NCBI RefSeq assembly: GCF_021890735.1
Contig: NZ_JAKKUR010000015.1
Coordinates: 1-35,040, forward strand
Length of the DNA stretch: 35,040 nucleotides
Source of the DNA: Thermanaeromonas sp.
Lineage (GTDB): Bacteria; Bacillota; DSM-521; Neomoorellales; Neomoorellaceae
Direction: 5' to 3'
A model generated the notes under the pieces. That model was not told the DNA's origin, did not search any database, and was given only the letters and a program-made list of their open reading frames with translations. Numbering within the stretch: the first letter of the stretch is position 1; each line of letters starts with the position of its first letter. The position numbers were made by a program, and so were the translations under genes. Shown one piece after another: positions 3,811-25,809 of the stretch.

Positions 3811-4840
3811 CTATGCGTATATGATATATACTGTGGCCCCGACCCGCGTGGTTAACTCAGTGTGGGCGCAGAAAATAGCCTTGCAAGACGGCCCGTCCTG
3901 TTTGTACGTACGGGATTTCTTAATTATCGCCCTCTTGCCGAATTCCTCCGCAAACGTCTTCGCATCCTCCGCTGAACCCAGGTTCAAAACTATCTTGTTC
4001 CGGCAGTTCTCCAGCACTATGTCCCTGAACGCAGGCTTGCTTTCCAACAATAGTTGCGCCGTGGTCTGCAATGCCAGTACTGTCGCACACCTGAACGACC
4101 GCCCTATCGCCAGCAGGCGTTCAAAATCCGGGTTCACGTATCGCGGGAATTCATCCACGTAAAGCACGTGGTAGGGCCTCGTCCTCTCATTCCCCGGCCT
4201 TCGGAACACCGCTGACTGGAAATGCATGATGATGAACTGCCCGAACACGTCGCCCAGCTTCCCAAACCTGCCCATAGCCGTATTTACCACTAATACCCCT
4301 CCGCCCTCCAGGTGGCGCTCAAGGTTTACGTCGCTCTTCCCCACCAGTACCCTGTTAAGAAGCGCATTTCCGGTTATGTTTTCCAGCTGAAGCCTGAGAC
4401 CCAGCGCATGCCGGAACATCTCTTCCTTGTTCTTGCCTAAAACTTCCTGCCGGAAGTACTGGGTGAGCGAAGTAGGCCCCCGCTCCTTCCTCTTGACAGT
4501 CTGCAGGCAGTTCAGGAGCTGGCTTTCGTCTCGCAGTACTTCCGTCATCATCTTGATGTCCAGGTTATCCCCATAAGCAGCTTTGAGGAGCAGCACGGTG
4601 TTCCGCGCCATTACCCCCTGCACCTGCCGGAAGAAGGCCTCCTGCTTCCCGAAAAGCGACTGGAGGACCGTCTTCATGATTTCCGCTACCGTCAACGCGT
4701 CACCCTCCAGAGGGTTGAACCGGGGCGTGTCCGGGTCCTCCGGGTTGATAAATATCACCGGAATGCCCAAGGTACGGGCCATCTCCGCTACGTCGGCACT
4801 GAAGTCGCCTTTGGGCCCTACTACCGTTATCCCAATAGCC
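3811..4840 (-). pseudogene. TraG/TraD/VirD4-type conjugative coupling ATPase, internal fragment
   Basis: Homology to coupling proteins begins near 4840 with TVVGPKGDFSADVAEMAR, continues through PEDPDTPRFNPLEGD, the Walker B-type YVDEFPRYVNPDF and ALQTTAQL, and fades after FGKRAIIKKSRTYK near 3900. The N-terminal membrane part and the Walker A P-loop are missing. The last 30 residues to 3811 (ending TVYIIYA) do not look like the family's C-terminus. Codons upstream of 4840 in the same frame are antisense to the integrase remnant and are not part of the gene. It is a both-ends truncated remnant of an integrative and conjugative element. With the integrase tail it marks an internal deletion of that element. 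Bases 3658-3810 hold no gene I can support. Confidence 0.75.
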
Positions 4841-5070
4841 ACGACCTCCGGCACACCTGTGCTTCGATTATGCTCGCACACGGTGTCCCTCTTCCTACGG
4901 TCCAAGAGATCCTCCGCCACAAGGACGCCTACACTACCGCCAAGATGTACTCGCACACTCTCCCCCGCTGGCACCGGGCGGCGGTAGAGAGGCTCGAGAA
5001 GGCTATTTCCGCAGATGGGCGGCAACTGGGCGGCAACTCGGCACCCGGCGACGATCAGGAAAAAATTTAG
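4841..5070 (+). pseudogene. Tyrosine recombinase (phage/ICE integrase), C-terminal fragment
   Basis: The frame reads SHDLRHTCASIMLAHGVPLP, then VQEILRHKDAYTTAKMYSHT, and ends at TAG 5070. This holds the C-terminal catalytic motifs of the family: HxxR in HDLRHT, the His in LRHKD and the tyrosine nucleophile in KMYSHT. The N-terminal arm-binding and core domains and the first catalytic Arg are absent; homology starts abruptly at the junction with the opposite-facing TraG fragment near 4840. The gene's 3' end sits 35 bases from the 3' end of tRNA-Thr, the usual layout for integration into a tRNA gene. It cannot be functional. Confidence 0.8.
5017..5038 (+). repeat. Two tandem 11-base repeats at the integrase 3' end
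   Basis: The unit GGGCGGCAACT occurs twice without spacing (5017-5027 and 5028-5038), inside the last codons of the integrase remnant. Direct repeats at this place are commonly arm-type binding sites of tyrosine recombinases; that role is inferred from position only. Confidence 0.5.
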
Positions 5071-5103
5071 GAGCCGCAAACCCTTGCGACTCCCTAAATT
5101 TTT
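5061..5103. terminator. Bidirectional intrinsic terminator behind tRNA-Thr
   Basis: An inverted repeat pairs AAATTTAGGAGCCGCAA with TTGCGACTCCCTAAATTT around a short ACCC loop, with one extra base and one mismatch. Read on the minus strand it is followed by six T and ends the tRNA-Pro/tRNA-Thr transcript; on the plus strand it is followed by five T. The integrase stop codon lies within the stem. Confidence 0.75.
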
Positions 5104-5489: not shown

Positions 5490-6410
5490 TCATCCTCTTT
5501 TACTTATCTTAACCCTTGCCCCTATTCTTTCTCTCAGGCGGCACATAGCGCAAACATCTTCCGTAGTTACCTGGCCGCAAAGGGCACATTCCTTGAGTTT
5601 TACCTCTTCTTCCGCAGCCTTAAAAAGGTCTTTATGTTTCAAGAACCCTTTCATGAAGGCCAGCTTAGTCCCGGGAGAGGCTTCCTCTATGTGGTTTAAA
5701 GCCTCCTTGTATAAAATAGTAGTAGCCCCCTCGGCATGAGGGCATTCTTCAGCCAGAAATGGTATACGCTGGATCAGGGCATAAGCTAAACATTCTCGCT
5801 CAGTTAGAGTATATAAAGGCTTAACCCTTTTGGCTAACTTGGGATGGGTAGAAGGCAGGTGCGGGTGCTGGCGGGCAAGATACCCCGTCTGCCAGTGCAG
5901 AAGATTGCCTAATAAGGCCGAAACCTCATCGTCTAGATTATGCCCAGTAACTACAGTGGTGAAGCCCCCTTCCACGGCATATCTGTTAAAAAGATACCTC
6001 TTTACACGGCCGCAGACTGCGCAGGGTACCCTCCGGCTTTTCCTGGCCAGCTCAGGAATGCTTAGCCCGAACTCCTCGTCTACTGAGACTATCCGCAGCT
6101 CTGCTCCTCTCTGGGCTGCAAAGGATTTACAAGTCTCACGTGAGCGGTCGGAATATCCCGGGATTCCTAAGTCTAAATGCAGGGCTGTAACGTTATATCC
6201 CAGACGTAAAAGTGCGTCCCACAAACTTAAGCTATCTTTACCCCCAGAAACCACTAAAAGCAAGGGCTCGGTAGGAGAAAACATTTTATGGGCCTGGATA
6301 TTCCGCCTTATCTGTTTCAAAAAGTACTCCACGAAGCAATTGGGGCAGAAGGCTGCATGGTGTTGGCGCACTTCCACAGAAGCCTTGCCCCGGCAAATTT
6401 GACATCGCAT
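5490..6410 (-). CDS. ttuA: TtuA-type tRNA-5-methyluridine(54) 2-sulfurtransferase
   Basis: ATP-dependent enzyme that adenylates ribothymidine-54 in the tRNA T-loop and replaces O2 with sulfur from TtuB thiocarboxylate; the resulting s2T stabilises tRNA in thermophiles. Seen in the 306 residues: N-terminal zinc-finger cysteines C3, C6, C22, C25; PP-loop SGGKDS at 55-60; cysteines C130, C133 and C223, matching the three [4Fe-4S] ligands known in TtuA (130, 133, 222 in Thermus); and a C-terminal zinc finger C275, C278, C287, C290. Length and every key residue fit TtuA better than TtcA. The ATG lies three bases after the ttuB stop, and its ribosome-binding site is formed by the last ttuB codons, so translation is probably coupled. 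Confidence 0.9.
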   Translation of the reverse strand: MRCQICRGKASVEVRQHHAAFCPNCFVEYFLKQIRRNIQAHKMFSPTEPLLLVVSGGKDSLSLWDALLRLGYNVTALHLDLGIPGYSDRSRETCKSFAAQRGAELRIVSVDEEFGLSIPELARKSRRVPCAVCGRVKRYLFNRYAVEGGFTTVVTGHNLDDEVSALLGNLLHWQTGYLARQHPHLPSTHPKLAKRVKPLYTLTERECLAYALIQRIPFLAEECPHAEGATTILYKEALNHIEEASPGTKLAFMKGFLKHKDLFKAAEEEVKLKECALCGQVTTEDVCAMCRLRERIGARVKISKRG

Positions 6411-6883: not shown

Positions 6884-6911
6884 GACCTTCCTTCAAAGGA
6901 GGTCTTTTTTT
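6884..6911 (+). terminator. Intrinsic terminator of the zinc-ribbon gene
   Basis: The stem GACCTTCC pairs with GGAGGTC (one bulged base) around TTCAAA and is followed by seven T. The T run overlaps the stop codon of the opposite-strand E1 gene. Confidence 0.8.
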
Positions 6912-7716
6912 ATTGTCGCGTTTCGCAGGTAAAAGTGTACTCCTCCAAGGTGCGGATGCGGGGACTATCTCCACATACGGGGCAAGCCGGGTTACGCTCT
7001 GCCCTTACTTCTCTAAACCGCATCTCCAGCCCGTTATAAATAAGCAGGCGGCCCACCAAAACCTCCCCCACTCCTAAAAGGAGCTTAAGAACTTCCGTAG
7101 CCTGTATGGCCCCTATAACACCGGGGACGGCACCTAAAATACCCGCTTCCTGGCAGGTGGGTACTGCTCCCGGAGGTGGCGGCTCAGGGAAAATACAGCG
7201 GTAACACGGGCCCTCCTTAGGTTTTATGGTCATAACCAATCCGTCCCATTGTAGCACGCCTGCCTCCACCAGGGGTTTACCGACCATTACACAGGCATCA
7301 TTTAAAAGATAGCGGGTGGGGAAATTATCAACCCCGTCTACAATAACTTCGTAGCCTTGAATAACGTCCAATATATTATCTTTGCTTAACCGTAGTTGGT
7401 GTACGTTCACGGTTATATGGGGATTCAAAGCAAGTAAAGTCTGCCTGGCCGACTCTGCCTTAGGCAGTCCTACCCGTTCGGTATTGTGAAGTATCTGCCG
7501 CTGCAGGTTGGACAATTCCACCGCATCTCCATCCACAATACCTATAGTGCCTACACCGGCTGCTGCAAGATAATAAGCCACCGGTGACCCCAGCCCTCCT
7601 GCTCCCACCACCAAAACCTTGCTTTGCTTGAGCTTCTTCTGGCCTTTTCCGCCTACATTAGGTAAAATGATCTGCCGGCTGTAGCGTTCGATTTCCGTTA
7701 TGGACAGTTCTACCAA
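6910..7716 (-). CDS. MoeB/ThiF/HesA-family adenylyltransferase (E1-like; TtuC candidate)
   Basis: Activates the C-terminal glycine of a ubiquitin-fold sulfur carrier with ATP. Seen in 268 residues: nucleotide-binding GAGGLG at 38-43, the ELSNLQRQ segment (68-74), DGVDNFPTRYLLND (127-140), catalytic-type C188 in VPTCQEAG, and the zinc ligands C171/C174 and C245/C248. All hallmarks are intact and the length suits MoeB/TtuC. In Thermus one such enzyme (TtuC) serves thiolation, molybdopterin and thiamine pathways; the nearby ttuB makes that role likely here, but the pathway cannot be fixed from sequence. It is the last gene of the row queT-ubiE-ubiD-ubiA, 31 bases after ubiA. Confidence 0.85.
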   Translation of the reverse strand: MVELSITEIERYSRQIILPNVGGKGQKKLKQSKVLVVGAGGLGSPVAYYLAAAGVGTIGIVDGDAVELSNLQRQILHNTERVGLPKAESARQTLLALNPHITVNVHQLRLSKDNILDVIQGYEVIVDGVDNFPTRYLLNDACVMVGKPLVEAGVLQWDGLVMTIKPKEGPCYRCIFPEPPPPGAVPTCQEAGILGAVPGVIGAIQATEVLKLLLGVGEVLVGRLLIYNGLEMRFREVRAERNPACPVCGDSPRIRTLEEYTFTCETRQ

Positions 7717-13597: not shown

Positions 13598-15538
13598 TCA
13601 TACCCATTCTAAAGTTACCCGGTCACCTTCCTTTAACGGCGTGGTAAATTCTGCAGGTTGACCGTTCACCTCCATCCTCAAAGTCTTTTTCCCTTGTGGT
13701 GGAGTAGTCCCTATCTCGAGGTAAGTAAATAAATCCGCAAAAATCACCTGGCTCGTTTTCACCATTAATTCGATTTCCTTGCCGTTTAAAGTGATTTTGA
13801 TTTTACGGGTTCCGGCCTTCGCACCCGTATCGAGAACATCGCCATCTTTAACCAAAGCCTCCGGCCGTACCCTCTCGCCATTTAAAAAAACAGGCTCGTT
13901 CCCGGGCTCCCCTAAATAGTTAAGAACATCCGCCACGGTCTCCAAGGGATTAAATTCAATCTTGGACCGGTCGTATACTTCAGCCTCCCGGGATACAGCG
14001 CACCCGTTTAAGAGAATTAAGGGTTCCAAGGTTATTTTTCTCCCGTTGTAGATTATGGTTTTATTCTTTAAGGGCGGGACCAGATCTCCTACCACAACCC
14101 GGGCATCTTCTCCTTTCTCCCCCGGGATAAACTCTATCTTATCGCCTCCTTGAACGAAGACATCCAGGGAGGCGGGCTCCCCATTTACCAAAATCTTTCC
14201 GGGTCTCCCCGGTTTGCCTTTTACGAAATGCAGCCGGCCGTTTATCTCCACCCCTATGCCCCGTCCCGGCCGGCCGTAAAGGTCCCGTACCGGAAGTCCG
14301 GCGGCCAGCAAAGCCTGGGCCACGGTCAGCTTGCGGGAAGCAAGAGCTTGCACGGGCCGCCCATTAACCTCAATTTGAGACAAAATTAAACCTTCTTGGC
14401 GCAGGGCTGTCACGGCTATCCCTAAAGGCGTGACAGCTTGGGGTCCGGCGAAACTGGGCGCACCCACGATATCCGGCAAGGCCTCCCGGCCCCGCACTGC
14501 CACCCTGTCTTCGGGGAGTTCCAAGCAGCGCGCCAGGCTAGGAGCAAGGCCGGGGGTTAAGCTCCCGCCTCCGATAAGAAGTACAGCCTGAGGTGGACGG
14601 CCGTTGAGAAGTAAAATTTGTTCTGCCACTTGACGAGCCAGCTCTCTAACGGCAGGCTGGAGTAGCTCTATAAGCTCTTCCGCAGGAAAAGCCCTCTTTT
14701 GGCCCACGATGTCCGCAAAAGAGATGGTCCCGCCTCTGTGAATCGCTCTTTTAACCTTTTCTGCTGTAGTGAAGTCGAGTAATAGTTCTCTGGCTAAATG
14801 TTCAGTTACCTCATCCCCTGCTTGAGGCACCATGGCGTACCCCACAATGCTTCCTTCGCGGGTTAACGCTATATCCGAAGTGCCCGCACCGATATCCACT
14901 AACGCCACATTCAAGCCGCGCATGGCCGGAGGCACGGCTACAGCCGCAGCAGCGATGGGCTCTAAAGTGAGGGAGCCTATCTCTAGCCCTGCCCACCGGA
15001 GGGCCGAAACCAGGGAATCCACCACCACCCGGGGTAGAAAAGTAGCAACGATTTCCACCCCCATAGTGTATCCCCGCTGGCCCACCAAATAACCGATACT
15101 GGAACCATCCAGCGTGTACTTCACTACACTGTAGCCTACACAATGATACTCTCCCGGTTTATCCCGGCCGGCAAGCACCGTATTCTCCGCTTCTTGTATA
15201 GCATCCGCCTCCAGGGCCAGGACTTCTTCCCTATCTATCTCCTTAGAGGGGGAGATCTCCTTTTCTGCGGCCGCCTTTTGAGTTTTTAAAGCCCTCCCTG
15301 CTGCAGCTACAGCTACTTTAGTAAGGGTGGTACGGGCTTTGCGTTCCAGCTTTTCCTTTACCTCCCGGATTATGTCGGCCACTTGCGGTATGTTATGGAT
15401 CTGGCCGTCCAGCATGGCCCGCTCCCTATGTTCCCGTACAACAGCCGCCTTAACCCGGAACTTTGACCCCTCTTTACTCACAATTACACCTGCAACTTTC
15501 CTCGTACCCACATCCAGCGCAAAGATCTCTTCCCCCAC
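13598..15538 (-). CDS. FtsA-like actin-fold ATPase with long C-terminal [VILY]NG-turn tail
   Basis: The first 388 or so of 646 residues form an FtsA/PilM-type actin-like ATPase: phosphate-1 EEIFALDVGTRKVAGV, phosphate-2 ALVDIGAGTSDIAL (about 212-225) and the adenosine motif LLIGGGSLTPG (about 320). Residues 389-646 are unlike cell-division FtsA. They hold eight turn motifs of the VNG/ING/YNG/LNG type (near 391, 432, 451, 497, 510, 552, 584, 624), several followed by GDxVxxxP-like ends as in beta-grasp or SLBB domains. GTG 15538 is chosen since it has a GGGGGG-type site seven bases upstream; the frame stays open to TTG 15604, which lies in a terminator tail. There is no FtsA C-terminal amphipathic anchor and no ftsZ neighbour, so a role in division is not implied. 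Confidence 0.75.
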   Translation of the reverse strand: MGEEIFALDVGTRKVAGVIVSKEGSKFRVKAAVVREHRERAMLDGQIHNIPQVADIIREVKEKLERKARTTLTKVAVAAAGRALKTQKAAAEKEISPSKEIDREEVLALEADAIQEAENTVLAGRDKPGEYHCVGYSVVKYTLDGSSIGYLVGQRGYTMGVEIVATFLPRVVVDSLVSALRWAGLEIGSLTLEPIAAAAVAVPPAMRGLNVALVDIGAGTSDIALTREGSIVGYAMVPQAGDEVTEHLARELLLDFTTAEKVKRAIHRGGTISFADIVGQKRAFPAEELIELLQPAVRELARQVAEQILLLNGRPPQAVLLIGGGSLTPGLAPSLARCLELPEDRVAVRGREALPDIVGAPSFAGPQAVTPLGIAVTALRQEGLILSQIEVNGRPVQALASRKLTVAQALLAAGLPVRDLYGRPGRGIGVEINGRLHFVKGKPGRPGKILVNGEPASLDVFVQGGDKIEFIPGEKGEDARVVVGDLVPPLKNKTIIYNGRKITLEPLILLNGCAVSREAEVYDRSKIEFNPLETVADVLNYLGEPGNEPVFLNGERVRPEALVKDGDVLDTGAKAGTRKIKITLNGKEIELMVKTSQVIFADLFTYLEIGTTPPQGKKTLRMEVNGQPAEFTTPLKEGDRVTLEWV

Positions 15539-15610
15539 ATCAACACCCCCCAAAAAGCGCCATCTTTTTGGAATTCTCCCCGGGATAAAAAAATCCTTCC
15601 CCAAAAATTT

Positions 15611-15933: not shown

Positions 15934-16266
15934 CTACTTTTCCTTTGTTTCCTTTGTATCCTTTGTCTCCTCTGTATCCTTGGATTTCTCCTTCACGGTA
16001 AACGGGTCGCCATAGGGCGGATCATAGGGAGGAGGACCGTAAGGCGGATGATAAGGGGGTGGATAGTGCGGTGGCATATGATCCATACGAGCTAAATAAT
16101 GGTTCCAGAACATAGCTTCGTGTACCTCGTTGCAGATATGTTTAAGAAGTACATGCCGTACACCGGGAGAGTCGGTCATACCGGCAGCTTCCGCGAGCAA
16201 TTTTATCTCTTCTAGATCGATGTCAAGAGCCCTTCGTACCTCATGATGGTGCAAACCGCCGTTCAC
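15934..16266 (-). CDS. His-rich helical protein with Pro-Pro-Tyr and acidic/Lys repeat tail
   Basis: About 110 residues from GTG 16266 (NGGLHHHEVRRALDIDLEEI), chosen for an AGGAGGGAGG site nine bases upstream. The N-terminal 65 residues are helical and His-rich, with HEAMFWNHYLARMDHM. Then follow repeated PPY units (four in a row, residues about 66-90) and a low-complexity end built from KDTEETKDTKETKEK, encoded by imperfect repeats at about 15940-15980. PPY-rich tails are common in spore-coat and surface-adhering proteins of Firmicutes, but there is no direct evidence here. Function unknown. Confidence 0.6.
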   Translation of the reverse strand: MNGGLHHHEVRRALDIDLEEIKLLAEAAGMTDSPGVRHVLLKHICNEVHEAMFWNHYLARMDHMPPHYPPPYHPPYGPPPYDPPYGDPFTVKEKSKDTEETKDTKETKEK

Positions 16267-16373
16267 CCATGCCTCCCTCCTCAAAACAAAGTAGTTTTAT
16301 AATCATCCGTCAATACAGCTTATGCCAAAATTTGCTATGAGGTGAACAGCGGCGGGCACCAAAAATTATAGGC

Positions 16374-17669
16374 CTACACTGCAGCTTTAAAAGCCCGGGA
16401 TGCGGCAGTGATGGTCCTCTCTATATCTTCGTCGGTGTGGGCCAGAGATACAAAGGCTGCCTCGAACTGGGAGGGCGGAAGATAAATACCCTGTTCGAGC
16501 ATGGAGCGGAAGTACCTGGCAAAGCGTTCCACATTCGAGGTTAGGGCTGTTTCGTAATCTACAACTTCGTTGGAAGTAAAGAATACGGTAAACATGGAGC
16601 CTTTCCGGTTGATGGTTACCTCTAGACCGGCTTCGCCGGCTTTTTCTCTTAATCCCCTCTCCAAAAGGGCTCCTTTCTCCTCCAAAGCCTCGTATACACC
16701 CGCGCGCTGTAAGATCTTTAAAGTAGCGAGCCCTGCTGTCACGGCTAAAGGATTGCCCGATAGAGTGCCCGCTTGATAAACAGGCCCGGAGGGGGCCACC
16801 TGTTCCATTATATCTCTTCTTCCTCCGTAAGCTCCTACCGGAAGCCCGCCGCCTATAATCTTACCCAGACAAGTAAGATCAGGCTTCACCTTATAAATTT
16901 CCTGAGCTCCCCCGTAGGCCACCCGGAATCCGGTCATGACCTCATCAAAAATGAGAAGGGAGCCGTATTTACGGGTAATATCCCTTAGCCCTTCCAGGAA
17001 ACCCGGGCGAGGAGGTACACAGCCCATATTTCCCGCTACGGGTTCTACTATTACAGCCGCAATCTCCTCACCTACCTGTTGAAAAACCTTTTCTACGCTC
17101 TCTAGATCGTTATACCTGGCCACTAAAGAATTACTGGCCGTACCCACAGGTACCCCGGGACTGGTAGGGACGCCAAAGGTAAGGGCCCCTGACCCTGCCT
17201 GGATTAAAAAATAATCGGCGTGGCCATGATAACATCCAGCGAATTTGACAATCTTTTCTCTTTTAGTAAAGGCTCTGGCTACTCTTATGGCGCTCATGGT
17301 GGCTTCCGTACCGGAGTTTACCAAGCGCACCATCTCTATGGAAGGTACCGCCTGAGTGATCATCTTGGCCAGTTCATTTTCCAGCTCTGTGGGCGCACCG
17401 AAACTGGTACCCATCTCCTTTAAAGTTTTTTCCAGGGCCTCCACCACTTCCGGATGGCGGTGCCCCAAGATCAAGGGACCCCAGGAGCCCACATAATCTA
17501 TGTATTCGTGCCCGTCGATATCGTAGATACGTGCACCCTCTCCTTTCGCTATAAAAGGTGGGGTCATACCTACAGCCCGGAAGGCGCGTACGGGACTGTT
17601 CACCCCTCCCGGCATGAGCTTCACTGCTTCTGCATACGCCTGGACAGAACGCGGCCACTGCCTGGCCAA
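16374..17669 (-). CDS. hemL: Glutamate-1-semialdehyde 2,1-aminomutase
   Basis: PLP enzyme converting glutamate-1-semialdehyde to 5-aminolevulinate, the step after HemA. The 431 residues have the full family pattern: [11 protein letters not shown] (20-30), [12 protein letters not shown] (118-129), GCYHGHAD (145-152), FDEVMTGFR (241-249) and the PLP lysine K270 in CLGKIIGGG. The start is TTG 17669 behind a GGGGGAAG site, 21 bases after ahbB. It is the last gene of the heme cluster; no clear terminator is seen in 16267-16373. Confidence 0.95.
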
Positions 17670-17690
17670 GGCTTCTTCCCCCTTTTCCCG

Positions 17691-18173
17691 CTATTTTTCG
17701 GTAAAATAACGCATACTTTCTTTTTTCAACTCCGCGGTGCTGAAGATAACCCGGTACTCATAATGTCCGATGGACCGGGCAAGCTTACGAGCTAAATCTT
17801 CACACTCTTCACGTGTCCGCCCGTGGATCATGGCAAAGAGGTTATAGGGCCACCCCGGCCTAGTTTTGCGCTGGTAACAATGGGTCACCTCCTTAAAAGA
17901 GGCCAGCTTGCTACCCGCAGCTTCTACCTCCTCCTCCGGTACCCGCCAAACTACCATAGCATTAGCGGTAATCCCGGCCTGCCAGTGGCGTATAGCCGCT
18001 CCAAACCTCCGGATAAGCCCTTCTTGTTGAAAGGCTTTAAGATAGGCCAGGACCTCCTCCTCATTAAGGCCCAAAATTTCCGCAGCTTTTTGAAAAGGGC
18101 GGGGTTCTAAAGGCAGGTCTCCCTGAAAGAAACGCACGATATTCTTTTCTGTTTCAGATAACTTCCGCACCAC
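17691..18173 (-). CDS. ahbB: Siroheme decarboxylase subunit AhbB (NirD/L-type, Lrp/AsnC fold)
   Basis: With AhbA, removes the acetate carboxyls at C12 and C18 of siroheme to give 12,18-didecarboxysiroheme. About 160 residues: an Lrp-like helix-turn-helix (EKNIVRFFQ to QEGLIRRFGAAIRHWQAG) followed by an alpha-beta half with THCYQRKTRPGWPYNLFAMIHG. The frame is open back to TTG 18197, but GTG 18173 gives a more typical N-terminus and a short 20-base overlap with ahbA. In these proteins the HTH no longer works in regulation (family knowledge). Confidence 0.85.
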   Translation of the reverse strand: MVRKLSETEKNIVRFFQGDLPLEPRPFQKAAEILGLNEEEVLAYLKAFQQEGLIRRFGAAIRHWQAGITANAMVVWRVPEEEVEAAGSKLASFKEVTHCYQRKTRPGWPYNLFAMIHGRTREECEDLARKLARSIGHYEYRVIFSTAELKKESMRYFTEK

Positions 18174-18633
18174 CGTCTTCCCCGTCCTTAAAATCAAAGT
18201 TTACCCGTATCTTAAAGGGGCGTTCTGCAGGCAGTTCTAAAAGCTCGGTCAACCCTGTGCGCGCTTTGATCTCTTCCAGCACTCTATCCAGGTGTTTCCG
18301 GCTGGGCCCGATCAAAGTAAACCACATATTATATTCATCTTCCCGCAAGTAGTTATGGGTTATACCCGGAAACGAATTTACAATTTCCGACACTTCTTCT
18401 AGCCGTTCAGGAGGGACTTTAAGCGCACATAAAGTACTTACATAGCCGAGCTTCCTTAGATCGAAAACTGCTCCGATACGCCTGATTATCCCTTTCCTCT
18501 TAAGTTCCCGGAGCCTTGCGATCACTTCGGATTCGCTTACACCCAGGCGCTGGGCCAGCTCTAAGTAAGGCCTGGGCGTCAGGGGAAATTCTTCTTGCAC
18601 AAGATTAAGCAGCCGGCGATCCAAGGCGTCCAA
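18154..18633 (-). CDS. ahbA: Siroheme decarboxylase subunit AhbA (NirD/L-type, Lrp/AsnC fold)
   Basis: Partner of AhbB. The 159 residues begin MDALDRRLLNLVQEEFPLTP and contain the Lrp-like HTH with SESEVIARLRELKRKGIIRR (about 33-52), then VSTLCALKVPPERLEEV and THNYLREDEYNMWFTLIG, the conserved core of heme d1/alternative heme decarboxylases. It overlaps ahbB and lies 61 bases after nirJ2. Together the pair supplies the step missing from the classical heme route. Confidence 0.88.
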   Translation of the reverse strand: MDALDRRLLNLVQEEFPLTPRPYLELAQRLGVSESEVIARLRELKRKGIIRRIGAVFDLRKLGYVSTLCALKVPPERLEEVSEIVNSFPGITHNYLREDEYNMWFTLIGPSRKHLDRVLEEIKARTGLTELLELPAERPFKIRVNFDFKDGEDGGAEVI

Positions 18634-18694
18634 TTTTCCTTTCCTCCCATGGTATAGGGCATAAACCGGAAACTGAGTTGCCTGGTATACTTCT

Positions 18695-19708
18695 TTATAT
18701 TTCTTTGCCTGGACTATAGCTTTCTTTACCTAAGCTATAGCGGCACCACGGATCTTCTGCCATGTAATCCCCTGAGAACGAGTACGCTCTGGCCCTGCAG
18801 CCACCGCAGATGGTACGAAAACGGCAGCGGCCGCAAACACCCGTATAATTTTGGCTGCGTAAGACTGCAAAAACTTCGCTTTCACGCCAGAGGCGATCGA
18901 AGGGTACCTCCCGCACATTACCCGCCTTAAGGTTGAGGTATGCACAAGGCTGAACATCTCCCCGCGGTCCCACAAGGCAGTAGGCTATACCTGCCAGGCA
19001 ACCCCGGCTGTAGGGCAGCTTTAGACCCATCTCCTGAGCCAAACGTATGAATTGAGGGGCGCAGGTAGGCTTAAGCTCAATGGGCACTTCCTGCTGCTTC
19101 GCTAATATACTTCGGATAGTCTCTTCGTACTGTGCTGCCCGGAAGGCGTCTTCCTCTAAGTTAGCCGCCCTCCCCGTAGGAACAAGGAAGAAAAAATGGT
19201 GCGCCCTGGCTCCCAGGCTTAAGGCAAGGTCGGTGATTTTAGTTAATTCCTCCCTGTTCCAGTCGAAAACCGTAGTGTGTACTTGAAAAGGCAGCCCTGC
19301 GCTGCGGCAAGCTTCCATTCCCGCCACGGCCTTCTCCCAGGCACCTTCCCTCCGGCGGAGGCGGTCATGCTTAGTGGGGTCGCAGCTATCCAAAGAGATG
19401 CCTACTGCCGCAGCCCCGGCTCTTTTTAGTTCACGGGCCAGTTCCGGCGTAAGTAGCGTACCGTTGCTGCCCAACACGGCGCGCAATCCCTGGCTTGAAG
19501 CGTAAGCCACAAGCTCAAGAAGGTCTGGGCGCATTAACGGCTCGCCGCCGCTAAAGATAAAAAGGCGAAAGCCGGCCCGTGCGGCTCCGTTTATGAGTTC
19601 CTTGGCTTCAGCATAGGAAAGCTCTTCTTCTAGCTTAGCGCCGGAATCCCTGTAGCAGTGGTCGCAGTATAAGTTACACTGATTGGTAGTATTCCAGGAA
19701 ATGAGCAT
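18695..19708 (-). CDS. nirJ2: Radical SAM/SPASM heme-pathway protein NirJ2 (AhbD-like)
   Basis: Radical SAM enzyme of the alternative heme pathway, probably converting the two propionates of Fe-coproporphyrin III to vinyls (AhbD step). The 337 residues start MLISWNTTNQ; C11, C15, C18 form the CxxxCxxC that binds the SAM [4Fe-4S] cluster, followed by IFSGGEPLMRPDL. The C-terminal SPASM-like part has further cysteines: GDVQPCAYLNL and CGRCRFRTICGGCRA. Three bases separate it from hemB. NirJ2 rather than NirJ1 by its short N-terminus; exact reaction inferred. Confidence 0.85.
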   Translation of the reverse strand: MLISWNTTNQCNLYCDHCYRDSGAKLEEELSYAEAKELINGAARAGFRLFIFSGGEPLMRPDLLELVAYASSQGLRAVLGSNGTLLTPELARELKRAGAAAVGISLDSCDPTKHDRLRRREGAWEKAVAGMEACRSAGLPFQVHTTVFDWNREELTKITDLALSLGARAHHFFFLVPTGRAANLEEDAFRAAQYEETIRSILAKQQEVPIELKPTCAPQFIRLAQEMGLKLPYSRGCLAGIAYCLVGPRGDVQPCAYLNLKAGNVREVPFDRLWRESEVFAVLRSQNYTGVCGRCRFRTICGGCRARAYSFSGDYMAEDPWCRYSLGKESYSPGKEI

Positions 19709-19711
19709 CCT

Positions 19712-20689
19712 TCACAACCACCTGGCGACATCTTTGGCAAAGTAAGTTATAATGAGATCCGCACCCGCACGTTTAATAGCCGTCAGCACTTCCAGCACCA
19801 CCGGGCGCTCATCGAGCCACCCCTTTTCGGCTGCCGCCTTTATCATAGCATACTCGCCGCTCACATTGTAGGCCGCTACGGGACAATTAAACTTCTCTTT
19901 AACCATACGTATAACGTCCAGGTAGGCCAGGGCCGGTTTTACCATAACGATATCGGCTCCTTCTTCCAAGTCCTGGGCCACTTCCCGCAGGGCCTCGCGG
20001 CCGTTGGCCGGATCCATCTGGTAGCTCCGCCTATCTCCGAATTGGGGAGCAGAAGCTGCTGCTTCCCGGAAAGGACCGTAAAAAGAAGAAGCATATTTAG
20101 CCGCATAGGAAAGGATGGGCACATAGGTGAATCCGTGGGCGTCGAGCTTCTTCCTTATAGCCCCTACTCTACCGTCCATCATGTCCGAAGGAGCCACCAT
20201 GTCCGCCCCGGCTTCCACATGGGAAAGGGCGGTCCGGGCCAAAAGCTCCAAGGTGGGGTCGTTAAGGATTACTCCGTCGTCCACCACCCCGCAGTGGCCG
20301 TGGCTGGTATACTCGCACAGGCACACATCGGTGATGACCAAAAGACTCGGAAATTCCTTCTTTATGGCCCGGATGGCCTGCTGGACCACTCCGTCAGGGG
20401 CGTAAGCCGGGGAACCCATTTCGTCCTTCTCACCCGGATCTGGGATGCCGAAAAGCAGTACGGCCGGTATCCCCAGCTTTACTACTTCCTCGGCCTCCCT
20501 AACCAGATTGTCCACCGAGACCTGGTAGACCCCGGGCATGGAAGCCACGGGGTTTCTTACTCCCTTCCCTGCTGTTACAAAAAGGGGGTATATCAAATCT
20601 TTCACTGATAGCTCCGTCTCCCGGACCATCTCCCTTAAGACCGGGTTCTGCCGCAACCTGCGCGGCCTTATGACGGGGAAGCCTGCCAC
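19712..20689 (-). CDS. hemB: Porphobilinogen synthase (delta-aminolevulinate dehydratase)
   Basis: Condenses two 5-aminolevulinate molecules to porphobilinogen. The 325 residues have the two active-site lysines, K198 ([15 protein letters not shown]) and the Schiff-base K251 ([11 protein letters not shown]), and the zinc-site cysteines C123, C125 and C133 in [14 protein letters not shown], so it is a zinc-dependent form. Embedded between nirJ1 (53 bases) and nirJ2 (3 bases), so translation with nirJ2 is likely coupled. Confidence 0.95.
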
Positions 20690-20742
20690 TTGCTCTCCCT
20701 CCTTTGCTAAATATCCATCCGGACATCCTTTACTTTTTTTAA

Positions 20743-21921
20743 TTAAACTCTTCCTTTAATCTCCTCTTCGGTCAAATAACAAGCGGGGTCGGACTCCCAA
20801 AAATCCCCTGTGGCCGCTTCCGCGCGAGCCCGGCAGTTACCGTTACAGATATCCAGCCAGAAACATTGCCGGCACCTACCCTTAAGGAGAGGCTTCCTAT
20901 CCCGCAATCCGGCCAAAAGGGGATGTTTGGCTTCCGACCAGATCCGGCTAAAAGGCTCTTCCCGGATGTGCCCTACCGTATGGTGCAGGGTAAATTGATC
21001 CGGATGCACCCCCCCTTCCCAGTCAATGGCACCGATGGCCATACCGCTCCGGTTTCCCCCGTTTAAACGCAGGAGCTCTAGGGCATAGGCGGCCCGTTCT
21101 GGGTCTTCCTTTTTAAGATGGAAATACAGGTAAGGTCCGTCAGCATGGTTATCCACGGTCAGCATCTCTATCTTTTTGCCCTTCCTGCGCCACCGGTACA
21201 CCCTTTCTATAAGAAGGTCCATTACTTCCCTCGTCTCCTCGTGGCTCAGGTCCCTTTCGGCCATACGGCTCCCCCGGCCAGTGTACACTAGATGATAAAA
21301 GCACACCCGCGGTATACCTTCTTCTTCGACCAAATATAAGATATCGGGTACCTGCGTAAGGGTGTCCTTGCTTAAGGTAAATCTCAACCCGACTTTTTGC
21401 CCGGCGTTAAGACAGTTATGGATCCCTTCCAGCGCCCTAAGGAAGGCGCCTTTTTCACCCCGGAAACTATCATGTGCGCTGTCTACTCCGTCCAGGCTTA
21501 CACCTACGTAGCTTACGCCCAATATCCTTAATTTCCGGGCGGTACTGGGATCGATTAAGGTGCCGTTGGTGGAAACAACCACCCTTATATTCCGGTTGAC
21601 TGCATATGCCATAAGATCAAAAATATCTTTCCTTAGGAGCGGCTCACCCCCGGAAAGGAGTAGGACCGGAACACGGAAAGAAGCCAGGTCATCCACCAGG
21701 GCTTTAGCTTCCGACGTGGTAAGCTCCCCGGGTGCGGGCTCCCCGGTGGCTTCCGCATAGCAATGGCGACATTTTAGATTACAAGCCTTTGTACAGTTCC
21801 AGACCACCACGGGCCCGCTGTCTTCCCGGGCTCCGGCCCGGGCAGTACGGCTTAAGGAATCATAGCGCAACGTGTCCCCGTAAAAGCTGTCTCCACAGAG
21901 AAGCTTGCTCAGACTGATCAA
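20743..21921 (-). CDS. nirJ1: Radical SAM/SPASM heme-pathway protein NirJ1 (AhbC-like)
   Basis: Probably removes the C2 and C7 acetate groups of didecarboxysiroheme to give Fe-coproporphyrin III (AhbC step). The 392 residues open with [20 protein letters not shown], the typical N-terminal extension of NirJ1; the radical SAM cysteines are C47, C51, C54 (CNLKCRHC); [13 protein letters not shown] follows. The SPASM-like end has [19 protein letters not shown]. It is 17 bases after cobA-hemD on the same strand. The division of labour between NirJ1 and NirJ2 is known from heliobacterial and Desulfovibrio work; assignment here is by similarity of layout. Confidence 0.85.
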
Positions 21922-21938
21922 GAGAATCCTTTACCCCC

Positions 21939-23480
21939 TTACTCCCTTGCTCGTTTACTAGTTTTAGCAAAATATTCTAACAAGGCCTGGATAAGACCCT
22001 CTTCGGTATATTCCCTGGCCTCTACCGCGACCTTTAGGCCCGCCTCGCGGGCGGCCTTACCGGTTACGGGACCTATGCAGGCCACGACCGTATCTTTTAG
22101 CAGCTCCGCCGCATCTCCGCCCAGCACCTCCAGCAGGGAGCGGACTGTTGAGGCACTGGTAAAAGTAACGGCATCTATTTTCCCATTAGACAACCATTCC
22201 CGCAATCGATCGGCATCTCCGTCGGCTTTTTCCGTTTTATAAGCGGCTACCTCCACTACTTCAGCCCCGCTCTGCCTCAGTTCCTCTGCAAGGACCGGCC
22301 GGGCTATATCTGCCCTGGGTAGAAGCACCCTTTTGCCTTTTACGTAAGGCTTTAAACCCGAAGCCACCGCTTCGGCTATATACTCCGCCGGCTGGTAGTC
22401 TGCCAAGATACCCCGCTCCGCCAGGGCCTCTGCAGTGGCCGGTCCTATGGCCGCTATTTTTACCCCGGCCAGGCTTCTTACATCCAAGCCTTGGGCCTTA
22501 AGGCGCCGCCAGAACCACTCCACCCCGTTCACGCTGGTAAATACAATCCAGTCGAAACGGGATGCTTCTTTTACCATCCTATCGAAGGTTTCCAGATCGA
22601 CTGGAGGCCTTATCTTTATGGCCGGAAACTGGACCACTTCGGCTCCCAATTCTGAAAGCCTTTGGGCCATTCCCTTTCCCCGGGGCCACGGGCGGGTAAC
22701 AACGATCCTCCGTCCGGCCAGAGGCTTGTTATCCCACCAGGCCAATTTTTCCCGCAGCCGGACTACCTCCCCCACCACTATAACGGCCGGGTTGCGGAAG
22801 GAGGCGGCTTGGGCCTTAGCTTCAATATCTACCAGGGTCCCCACCAAGGTTTCCTGTTCCGCCCGGCTTCCCCAGCGGATAAGAGCGCAAGGAGTGGAGG
22901 GCGGGCGGCCGTGGAGCAGCAATTGTCCCACAATATGGGAGAGATTGCCTACTCCCATCAAAAATACCAGGGTATCCGCGCTGCGGGCCAGCTCCCGCCA
23001 GTTTATCCGCGTTCCTTCTTTGCCGGGGTCTTCGTTGCCGGTAACAATAGCCACCGTAGAAGCCACTCCCCGGTGGGTCACCGGGATGCCTGCATAGGCA
23101 GGTACGGCCACAGCCGAGGTAACCCCCGGAACTATCTCAAAAGGGATACCGGCCTCTCTGAGGGTCAGGGCTTCCTCCCCGCCGCGACCAAAAAGGAAGG
23201 GATCTCCCCCTTTAAGACGTACTACTTTTTTACCTTCCCTGGCGAGCCTTACAAGGAGGTTATTTATCTCCTCTTGGGATAGGGCGTGCCGCCCCGGGGC
23301 CTTACCCACGTAAATTTTTTCGCAATCTTCCCGGGTGAAGTGGAGTAACTCGGGGTTTATAAGACGGTCGTAAACCACAGCATCTGCTTCTGCCAAACAA
23401 TCCTTTCCCCTCAAAGTTAAAAGCCCTACATCTCCTGGCCCGGCACCTACCAAATATACCTTACCTTTGGCCTGCACCAT
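21939..23480 (-). CDS. cobA-hemD: Uroporphyrinogen-III C-methyltransferase / uroporphyrinogen-III synthase fusion
   Basis: Bifunctional: the C-terminal HemD half cyclises hydroxymethylbilane to uroporphyrinogen III, and the N-terminal half methylates it twice with SAM to precorrin-2. Residues 1 to about 250 have the SUMT motifs VYLVGAGPGDVGLLTLRG, VRLKGGDPFLFGRGGEE and GIPVTHRGVAS. Residues from about 260 have RIVVTRPWPRGKGMAQRL, FDWIVFTSVNGVEWFW and DAVTFTSASTVRSLLEVL of HemD. The fusion is common in clostridia and channels material toward siroheme. It overlaps hemC by 20 bases. Confidence 0.95.
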   Translation of the reverse strand: MVQAKGKVYLVGAGPGDVGLLTLRGKDCLAEADAVVYDRLINPELLHFTREDCEKIYVGKAPGRHALSQEEINNLLVRLAREGKKVVRLKGGDPFLFGRGGEEALTLREAGIPFEIVPGVTSAVAVPAYAGIPVTHRGVASTVAIVTGNEDPGKEGTRINWRELARSADTLVFLMGVGNLSHIVGQLLLHGRPPSTPCALIRWGSRAEQETLVGTLVDIEAKAQAASFRNPAVIVVGEVVRLREKLAWWDNKPLAGRRIVVTRPWPRGKGMAQRLSELGAEVVQFPAIKIRPPVDLETFDRMVKEASRFDWIVFTSVNGVEWFWRRLKAQGLDVRSLAGVKIAAIGPATAEALAERGILADYQPAEYIAEAVASGLKPYVKGKRVLLPRADIARPVLAEELRQSGAEVVEVAAYKTEKADGDADRLREWLSNGKIDAVTFTSASTVRSLLEVLGGDAAELLKDTVVACIGPVTGKAAREAGLKVAVEAREYTEEGLIQALLEYFAKTSKRARE

Positions 23481-24405
23481 AGCTCCTCCGCACTCCTTCC
23501 AGGATGGCTCTGGCTCCCCGTTTGAGGAGCTTAGCTGCCAAGCGCTTACCCACCTCTTCAGGCCGGCTTACCGAGCCCGCTTCCACGTCCCTTAACAATT
23601 CCCTGCCGTCCAGGCTGGCTACCATCCCTTCTAGGATTAGGCAGCTTCCTTCCGCCCGGCCCAGGGCGGCTATAGGCACCTGGCACCCGCCCTCCAATTC
23701 TCTGAGGAAAGCCCGCTCTGCTTGTACGCAGGCGAAAGAAGGTGGGTCATTTAACGGTTTAATCAATTCGAGTACCCGCTTGTCATCCTTCCGGACTTCA
23801 ACTCCTATAGCTCCCTGCCCCACGGCTGGAAGGCAGATGTCATAAGGCAGCTCCTCGCTCACCCAGTGGCTCATCCGGAGGCGCTTTAACCCTGCGGCAG
23901 CAAGAATTATCCCGTCCAAACCTTCTTTTTCCATCTTGGCCAGCCGTGTAGTAACATTTCCCCTCAGATCGACAATTTCTAAATCCGGCCGCCAGTGCCA
24001 GAGCTGCGCTTTCCTCCGCAGGCTGCTCGTGCCCAGGCGGGCCTTTGCCGGAAGGCCGGTCCAACCTTGACCCCGGCGCGAAACCAGAACATCCCGGGGG
24101 TCCTCCCTCGGTCCTATGGCACCTATAACCAGACCATGAGGGAGCACCGTAGGCACATCCTTCATACTGTGGACCGCCACATCTATACGGCCTTCCTCTA
24201 AAGCTATCTCCAACTCCTTAGTAAAAAGGCCCTTGTCACCGATGCGGGCCAGGGCCACATCCAGTATCTTATCTCCTTTAGTTTTTAATGTTACCAGCTC
24301 GCATTTAAGCTCCGGATGAACTCTCTTTAACGCTGCTATGACCCATTCGGCCTGCCATCTAGCTAGTGCACTTTCCCGGGAACCTACTACCAATTTAAGT
24401 CCCAT
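23461..24405 (-). CDS. hemC: Hydroxymethylbilane synthase (porphobilinogen deaminase)
   Basis: Polymerises four porphobilinogen units. The 314 residues show GSRESALARWQAEWV (8-22), HSMKDVPTVLP (79-89), GTSSLRRKAQL (125-135), DLRGNVTTRL (146-155) and the dipyrromethane-cofactor cysteine C241 in LEGGCQVPIAA. Complete and of normal length. A 90-base gap precedes it after hemA, the longest inside the cluster, which may hold an internal promoter or processing site, but none is clear. Confidence 0.95.
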   Translation of the reverse strand: MGLKLVVGSRESALARWQAEWVIAALKRVHPELKCELVTLKTKGDKILDVALARIGDKGLFTKELEIALEEGRIDVAVHSMKDVPTVLPHGLVIGAIGPREDPRDVLVSRRGQGWTGLPAKARLGTSSLRRKAQLWHWRPDLEIVDLRGNVTTRLAKMEKEGLDGIILAAAGLKRLRMSHWVSEELPYDICLPAVGQGAIGVEVRKDDKRVLELIKPLNDPPSFACVQAERAFLRELEGGCQVPIAALGRAEGSCLILEGMVASLDGRELLRDVEAGSVSRPEEVGKRLAAKLLKRGARAILEGVRRSYGAGQR

Positions 24406-24495
24406 ACGCCTATGAGCCTCCCCGGTACGTCTCCTTTCTCCGGCCTACCTTAACCCCGGCTCTTCCACCATAGCTTTCCACCAAGCAGGTTCGGG

Positions 24496-25809
24496 CTACC
24501 TCCCGTCGGCCCGGCACCTCAAATCACCTGTATCCTGCTCTTCCTTCACCTCAAGGCCGAAGAGCTCTTGCAGAGCTTCTACATACAAATGACCCTGGGG
24601 TTTAAAAACTGCTTGCTTAAGATTGACCACAACATCATGCAACAACTGGTTTACAATGGAATTAGCCAGAGTCCCTATAATTTTCTTTTCCCTGGGTGAG
24701 GGCGAACCCAGGCGGTTGAAGGCGCGCCGTAGCTCCGCCTCTTTTATGGCCTCCGCCTTCTTCTTAAGGGCTACAATGGTAGGTACCACAGATAGCGAAC
24801 CTAACCACTGGAAGAAATTTTCCACCTCTTCGGCAATGATGCCTTCTGCCTTCTGCGCTGCTTTCTGCCGCTCTTCCAGGTTATTCAATACCACCTGTTG
24901 CAAGTCGTCGATATCGAAGAGCTTGACACCCGGAAGGTCCCCCACGGCGGGATCGATATCCCGGGGTACGGCGATATCTATCAGCATCAGAGGCGTATTT
25001 TCCCGGCCCTTTCTGGCCCGGGCTACTTGCTCGGGATGTAAAATATAATGGCTGGCCGCCGTACAGCTTATAACTATATCCGCTTGAGGTAAAATATCTT
25101 CCAGATTATCTAATCGTACAGCCTGGCCGCCAATGGTCTGGGCTAAAGCCTTCGCCCGCTCATAGGACCGGTTAGAAACCAAAACGGTAGTAACTCCGTT
25201 ATCCCTAAGATAACGGGCAGCCAGAGTGCTCATTTTCCCTGCTCCGATGACGAGAACTGTCCGCCCTTCTAGGCTACCAAAGACCTGCCTGGCCAGCTCT
25301 ACCGCGGCGTAACTTACGGACACCGTATTGTGGTTTATACGCGTTTCTGTCCTTACGCGCTTTCCTGTAGAGATGGCCTGCTGGAAAAGCGTATTTAATA
25401 CAGGGTGCGTCGCATCATTTGCCCGGGCTATATCATAAGCTTCGGCTACTTGGCCTAAGACTTGAGCTTCTCCCAGGATCATGGAATCAAGCCCTGAAGC
25501 CACCCGGAAGAGGTGCCTTACGGCTTCATAGGAGCTGTAAGTATATAAATACTTATCTAAAAGGGAAAGCTCCTCTTCACAACGCCGGCTCAAAAAATCC
25601 TTGGTTTCTCTAATGGCTTGCTCGGGTTCTGAGGTGACGAAATATACCTCTGTACGGTTACACGTGCTTAAGATAACCGCTCCCGCTATGTCCGGCAGCT
25701 CCTTTAAAGACTTTAGAGCTTCCGGCAGGACATAACGGGGAAAAGCCAGCTTTTCCCTGATCTCCACCGGAGCCGTGCGGTGATTTAAGCCTACCACCCA
25801 GATAAACAC
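24496..25809 (-). CDS. hemA: Glutamyl-tRNA reductase
   Basis: First committed step of tetrapyrrole synthesis: NADPH-dependent reduction of glutamyl-tRNA(Glu) to glutamate-1-semialdehyde. The 437 residues have the catalytic C50 in LSTCNRTEVY, GLDSMILGEAQVLGQV, and the NADPH-binding VLVIGAGKMSTLAARYL (about 185-201), plus the C-terminal dimerisation helices. It overlaps the preceding sirC gene by 19 bases, so it is translationally coupled. Feedback by heme or protein turnover is common in other bacteria, but nothing in this sequence shows it. Confidence 0.95.
   Translation of the reverse strand: MFIWVVGLNHRTAPVEIREKLAFPRYVLPEALKSLKELPDIAGAVILSTCNRTEVYFVTSEPEQAIRETKDFLSRRCEEELSLLDKYLYTYSSYEAVRHLFRVASGLDSMILGEAQVLGQVAEAYDIARANDATHPVLNTLFQQAISTGKRVRTETRINHNTVSVSYAAVELARQVFGSLEGRTVLVIGAGKMSTLAARYLRDNGVTTVLVSNRSYERAKALAQTIGGQAVRLDNLEDILPQADIVISCTAASHYILHPEQVARARKGRENTPLMLIDIAVPRDIDPAVGDLPGVKLFDIDDLQQVVLNNLEERQKAAQKAEGIIAEEVENFFQWLGSLSVVPTIVALKKKAEAIKEAELRRAFNRLGSPSPREKKIIGTLANSIVNQLLHDVVVNLKQAVFKPQGHLYVEALQELFGLEVKEEQDTGDLRCRADGR

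Follow-up and report, generated by a model that had tools for sequence, protein, structure and literature searches.

The window analyzed here, a stretch of 35,040 nucleotides from a Thermanaeromonas sp. contig, contains on its minus strand, at positions 13598 to 15538, a gene for a 646-residue protein that resembles the actin-like ATPase FtsA in its N-terminal part and carries a long tail of another kind. The locus raises the question of whether such a protein still belongs to cell division or serves a different cellular machine. The start codon of the gene is GTG. A longer frame would be possible from a TTG at position 15604; the GTG start is preferred because relatives begin with the pattern M..x(I/L)FALDIGT, which matches it.

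The ATPase domain had been judged intact in a preliminary description of the locus, and our analysis agrees. The nucleotide motifs DxGTR, DxGxGT, and GGG are identical in all 43 aligned family sequences, as is a family motif comprising H37, R40, D44, G45, Q46, and H48. A full-length AlphaFold2 model built on the 43-sequence alignment had a mean pLDDT of 90 and a pTM of 0.71. Fold alignment and motifs delimit the ATPase domain to residues 1 to 381 (positions 14396 to 15538, minus strand), including the part that aligns along the 1C (SHS2-type) domain of FtsA. This region superimposed on V. maritimus FtsA (7q6f) with a VIA-align Z of 42.1 and an rmsd of 1.9 over 359 aligned residues, compared with Z values of about 32 for PilM and about 25 for MreB. 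In Pfam, the N-terminal part matched PilM_2, FtsA, and MreB, the top match being PilM_2 (PF11104; score of 50.2 against a cut-off of 27). The NCBIfam models gave 101 to 102 bits for FtsA (TIGR01174; cut-off, 175.85) and 63.1 bits for PilM (TIGR01175; cut-off, 133). As both scores lie below their cut-offs, the protein falls outside both curated families.

The tail had been reported to carry eight [VILY]NG turns, and these were found at residues 391, 432, 451, 497, 510, 552, 584, and 624, with a ninth occurrence, at residue 311, lying inside the ATPase domain. The number is far above chance, as shuffling the last 272 residues 10,000 times yielded 0.38 such turns on average and never more than 4. 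The 43 family sequences have between 1 and 8 of them per tail, and the turn number is therefore not a conserved feature of the family. Tail length ranges from 199 to 421 residues in the same sequences, suggesting that the number of tail domains probably differs between family members.

Because a fold search with the whole model matched the ATPase part only, the tail was modeled separately, giving a prediction with a pLDDT of 93 in which three consecutive ubiquitin/ThiS-like beta-grasp domains can be assigned, their Z values of 7 to 8.5 being modest by the alignment tool's own note. The first predicted domain (residues about 382 to 478; positions 14105 to 14395, minus strand) corresponds to residues 6 to 95 of the tail model and matched a TGS domain (3hvz; Z of 8.5) and SAMP1 (4hro; Z of 8.3). 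The second (residues about 490 to 572; positions 13823 to 14071, minus strand; tail model residues 111 to 193) matched 2Fe-2S/ThiS-like folds with Z values of about 7 and contains a Pfam ThiS match at tail residues 138 to 190. The third (residues about 578 to 646; positions 13601 to 13807, minus strand; tail model residues 200 to 267) matched a MoaD-type protein (1vjk; Z of 7.4) and ThiS (1zud; Z of 6.7). In Pfam, too, the tail matched ThiS (above its cut-off), Ub-Mut7C, and, more weakly, other beta-grasp families, and ThiS was found independently in 36 of 41 family tails. The beta-grasp character proposed earlier is thus borne out. The proposal of a chain of short beta-rich units held in part: the tail is predicted to be ordered and rich in beta structure, with GDxV/GDxI-type ends near residues 465, 566, and 638, but the turns fall within three predicted beta-grasp domains and do not mark eight units.

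The best Foldseek matches of the tail model were two bacterial multi-ubiquitin proteins (PDB 9d5a and 9cd2; E value of 6e-7), which share with it a string of ubiquitin-like domains; because the TM-scores were only about 0.2, these matches support the single domains only. The arrangement of the domains differs, and the multi-ubiquitin chains, as listed, have no ATPase domain.

In the models the C terminus is a beta strand belonging to the third beta-grasp domain, and no C-terminal amphipathic membrane helix is present, in agreement with the earlier view that the membrane anchor of FtsA is missing. The predicted tail is not FtsA-like. The highest mean Kyte-Doolittle value over 19 residues was 1.5, so the 646-residue protein lacks a strongly hydrophobic segment. 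The suggestion of a role in surface assembly gained no ground, since nothing pointing to secretion was found.

One explanation for these features is that the protein is a second FtsA, an accessory member of the divisome that joins the Z ring or is used in special divisions. FtsA is both its closest fold (Z of 42) and a better curated match than PilM (101 versus 63 bits), and the two share nucleotide motifs. The genome, however, already has a canonical ftsA (418 bits; contig C114) adjoining a gene that we named ftsZ from its translation, so the window's gene is not the sole ftsA; the canonical FtsA has a Trp/Leu/Phe-rich C-terminal stretch. Where FtsA has its C-terminal helix, the window protein has a beta-grasp tail; it also scores below the FtsA cut-off and is not encoded beside ftsZ. 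The position of R300 in E. coli FtsA, a contact for FtsZ, is occupied by alanine in the window protein and is not kept as arginine in the family (A in 13, S in 6, V in 6, and R in only 4 of 43 aligned sequences). The gene had been described as having no division gene nearby, and this was upheld: the window has 72 open reading frames of 80 residues or more, many of them overlapping, and a Pfam scan of 30 besides this gene gave no match to a division family. We consider a divisome role quite unlikely.

A role as a PilM-type ATPase, in a type IV pilus or a similar machine of the envelope, would accommodate the top Pfam match and the RefSeq name PilM given to a family member in an Anoxybacillus gene table. 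The fold is related, and the window protein has a DGxI-type loop, as PilM does. In contrast to PilM, it scores far below the curated cut-off (63 versus 133 bits) and has a three-domain tail. No pilus family, pilNOPQ included, was present among the 30 window reading frames scanned or among the 25 commonest families of upstream neighbors. A pilus function is therefore very unlikely, even though some members share the database name.

The resemblance of the tail to ThiS, Ub-Mut7C, and TGS domains also allows the reading that it is handled by a ThiF-type enzyme, either as a sulfur carrier or as a protein modifier, and a ThiF gene and a TtuA-type gene do lie about 6 to 10 kb away in the window. The tail shares its predicted fold with ThiS, MoaD, TGS, and SAMP proteins, but its domains are in tandem, are fused to an ATPase, and lack the C-terminal GG, which was absent from all 43 sequences of the family alignment. 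On the missing GG end we reject a conjugated modifier or sulfur carrier, to which we attach a negligible probability despite these two genes.

A search for the same architecture identified a separate and widely conserved family. In the genome collection, 162 stretches encode a relative, and the best 80 of these 162 include Bacillaceae, Halanaerobiales, selenomonads, Clostridia, Omnitrophota metagenome-assembled genomes (MAGs), and others. Strong matches (E value of 1e-120 or better) were found in 29 of 41 near genomes. The gene is present in 118 of 199 genomes sampled from the window's phylum, with one match each, and in 69 of 120 genomes sampled from the class of a selenomonad genome, again with one match each except in G254. 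In that genome (G254:C3:111679-113788) the gene is in two pieces, ATPase and tail, which may be due to breakage of the gene, a fault in the assembly, or a genuine split. The two samples overlap by at least three genomes (G244/G048, G268/G164, and G276/G186, with identical coordinates). The family is widespread and mostly single copy, and an FtsA-fold ATPase found in over half of the sampled phylum and class genomes goes under the names FtsA and PilM.

We compared the distribution of the gene in the same 199 phylum genomes with those of FlhA (flagella), Spo0A (sporulation), and the CheA dimer domain (chemotaxis). In counts made without correction for the tree, CheA was present in 116 of 118 carriers versus 55 of 81 noncarriers, FlhA in 113 versus 57, and Spo0A in 112 versus 64, and CheA was the best predictor of the gene among the three. 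Of the 165 genomes encoding CheA as well as FlhA, 111 carried the gene; it was also carried by 5 of the 6 that had CheA without FlhA and 2 of the 5 that had FlhA without CheA, and by none of the 23 that had neither. After collapse to 97 families, in which the labels of G194 and G205 are guesses, CheA was present in 58 of 59 carrier families versus 23 of 38 others. Noncarriers missing from the phylum listings were taken to be the genomes left over in the series G041 to G215, and lists and family labels were transcribed by hand. The window's own genome has CheA and FlhA, both encoded outside the window.

The class sample gave a sharper picture: the gene, CheA, and FlhA occurred together in 69 of the 120 genomes, the three lists being matched by eye, and the other 51 had none of the three. 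As the sets are identical, flagella and CheA are indistinguishable as partners within this sample, and the coincidence, in counts that ignore kinship, may rest on few losses. Every carrier in both samples (118 of 118 and 69 of 69) has CheA or FlhA, and 19 of 20 further carriers screened for CheA alone were positive, the exception being G223. In the phylum sample, two carriers (G062 and G202) had FlhA but no CheA match.

The five carriers without FlhA, three of which belong to one family, all have CheA and CheR. For this reason chemotaxis is judged a likelier partner than the flagellum, and a strictly flagellar gene was rejected. Within the set of genomes that have FlhA, carrying the gene makes no difference to the presence of CheA (111 of 113 carriers versus 54 of 57 others), so that the advantage of CheA as a predictor comes from few genomes. 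A sporulation gene was likewise rejected, as the link with Spo0A is the weakest of the three and 6 of 118 carriers lack it. CheA occurs without the gene in 55 of the 199 phylum genomes, 54 of which also have FlhA; the gene is therefore not needed for chemotaxis as such and is accessory. The association with motility genes also argues against the second FtsA considered above, since division would have no reason to need a gene only in motile genomes.

The gene neighborhood was analyzed at 61 loci, namely, the window and 60 stretches from the 118 phylum-sample carriers, mostly one per family, with neighboring reading frames predicted by a simple frame finder. No neighbor was constant across these loci and no operon was conserved throughout, and a constant operon partner was accordingly rejected. 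In the window's clade hemL and other heme genes are frequent neighbors, and CheR and HD-domain proteins are also frequent. A CheR gene lies near the FtsA-like gene in 8 of 61 loci, seven times within three reading frames upstream on the same strand. Among 96 upstream same-strand neighbors the commonest Pfam families were CheR (9), Aminotran_3 (hemL type; 6), CheC (5), and the CheA dimer domain (4). These 96 are a subset of 136 such neighbors found, with near duplicates and short frames dropped by hand; from the 80 loci of set 1, a clustering rule left out 39 with Bacillaceae-type neighbors, and L060, whose frame fell in no cluster, was excluded as well.

Three Omnitrophota MAG loci (L022, L032, and L040) have the order CheB, CheA, CheC, the FtsA-like gene, topA, and xerC, and two more (L078 and L026), cut by contig ends, retain parts of it. 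In four Clostridia-type MAG loci (L011, L013, L017, and L037), cheR lies one to three reading frames upstream of the gene. The order of heme genes, cheR, and the FtsA-like gene looks ancestral. Among the 30 window reading frames scanned, which include heme genes, no chemotaxis or flagellar family was found. A crude scan for sigma-28 promoters, with approximate starts, gave a score of 10 or more for 15 of 139 upstream regions versus 213 of 1,897 control reading frames, which is no enrichment and lends no support to a late flagellar gene. In Bacillaceae the gene is divergent; it is flanked on one side by aroA, with ccpA and motPS farther out, and on the other by ytxJ-ytxH-ytxG. The ytxH gene there is two genes from the FtsA-like gene (L166, 14488-14853). 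A crosslinking-based model, PDB 9a51, pairs the actin-like protein Mbl with YtxH, a parallel that is possibly due to chance.

These neighborhoods bear on whether the link to motility could be indirect, the gene serving some other trait of free-living cells with larger genomes, such as envelope, shape, heme, or stress functions, and being lost together with motility. Genomes without CheA are mostly small, and general gene loss could thus contribute to the association; a hemL-type gene or other heme genes adjoin in 13 of 61 loci, more often than CheR, and the Bacillaceae gene has the aroA and ytx neighbors just described. Against this stand the exact match of the three gene sets in the class sample, the better prediction by CheA than by Spo0A, and the CheR, CheC, or CheA neighbors in several lineages. 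We regard an indirect link as unlikely. Taken with the counts, which carry no tree correction, these observations suggest that the gene probably works in chemotaxis or motility.

The protein would then be a paralogue of FtsA that no longer takes part in cell division and instead serves the chemotaxis and motility apparatus, keeping the ATP-driven core and changing its cargo. The FtsA-like core would bind ATP, and the protein may form short filaments or an ATP-switched scaffold, as do FtsA, PilM, or MreB. The three-domain beta-grasp arm could act as a docking surface replacing the membrane helix and the FtsZ contact. The protein might help to place, cluster, or partition a cargo, which would be either the chemosensory array or the basal body of the flagellum. 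A scaffold of arrays or basal bodies is the likeliest mechanism, though still a tentative proposal with the odds against it. The fuller picture is slightly more doubtful: a distinct family of bacterial actin-like proteins, derived from FtsA and acting as a filament or switch, whose triple ubiquitin-like arm would hold on to chemosensory arrays or the basal bodies of flagella and which would provide much of Bacillota with a cytoskeletal element devoted to chemotaxis and motility.

Positioning of chemosensory arrays is performed in Vibrio by ParC and ParP (PMC5706961). The likeness extends to the proposed task only; no homology is claimed, and the window protein, unlike ParC/ParP, has an FtsA/actin-type fold. 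A literature search of mostly freely readable papers other than bioRxiv preprints found no description of an FtsA-like protein that has a beta-grasp tail or is linked to chemotaxis. Neither the fold nor the domains are new, and the gene already bears other names in annotation; for their combination and for the co-occurrence, that search gave no earlier description. If the protein does serve chemotaxis, a new task would be added to those of the actin-like families, and the protein would offer a handle on the placement or partition of sensory arrays.

Several features around the gene deserve mention in their own right. A TraG/TraD-type coupling-protein match (positions 3811 to 5079, minus strand) lies in an otherwise chromosomal-looking stretch. 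The TtuA-type PP-loop gene (5490 to 6410) and the ThiF-type gene (6910 to 7716), both on the minus strand, are near each other, and after them come UbiA, UbiD, and UbiE family genes, a group that possibly represents a tRNA thiolation or cofactor pathway. Between hemL and the FtsA-like gene is a 116-residue reading frame (15934 to 16284, minus strand) with a Tyr/Pro-rich repeat and no Pfam match. Beyond it, at 16374 to 25809 on the minus strand, a heme/siroheme cluster contains a hemL-type gene, two siroheme-decarboxylase-like genes, radical SAM genes, and genes for ALAD, HemD/methylase, porphobilinogen deaminase, and glutamyl-tRNA reductase, and looks like an alternative (siroheme) route to heme.
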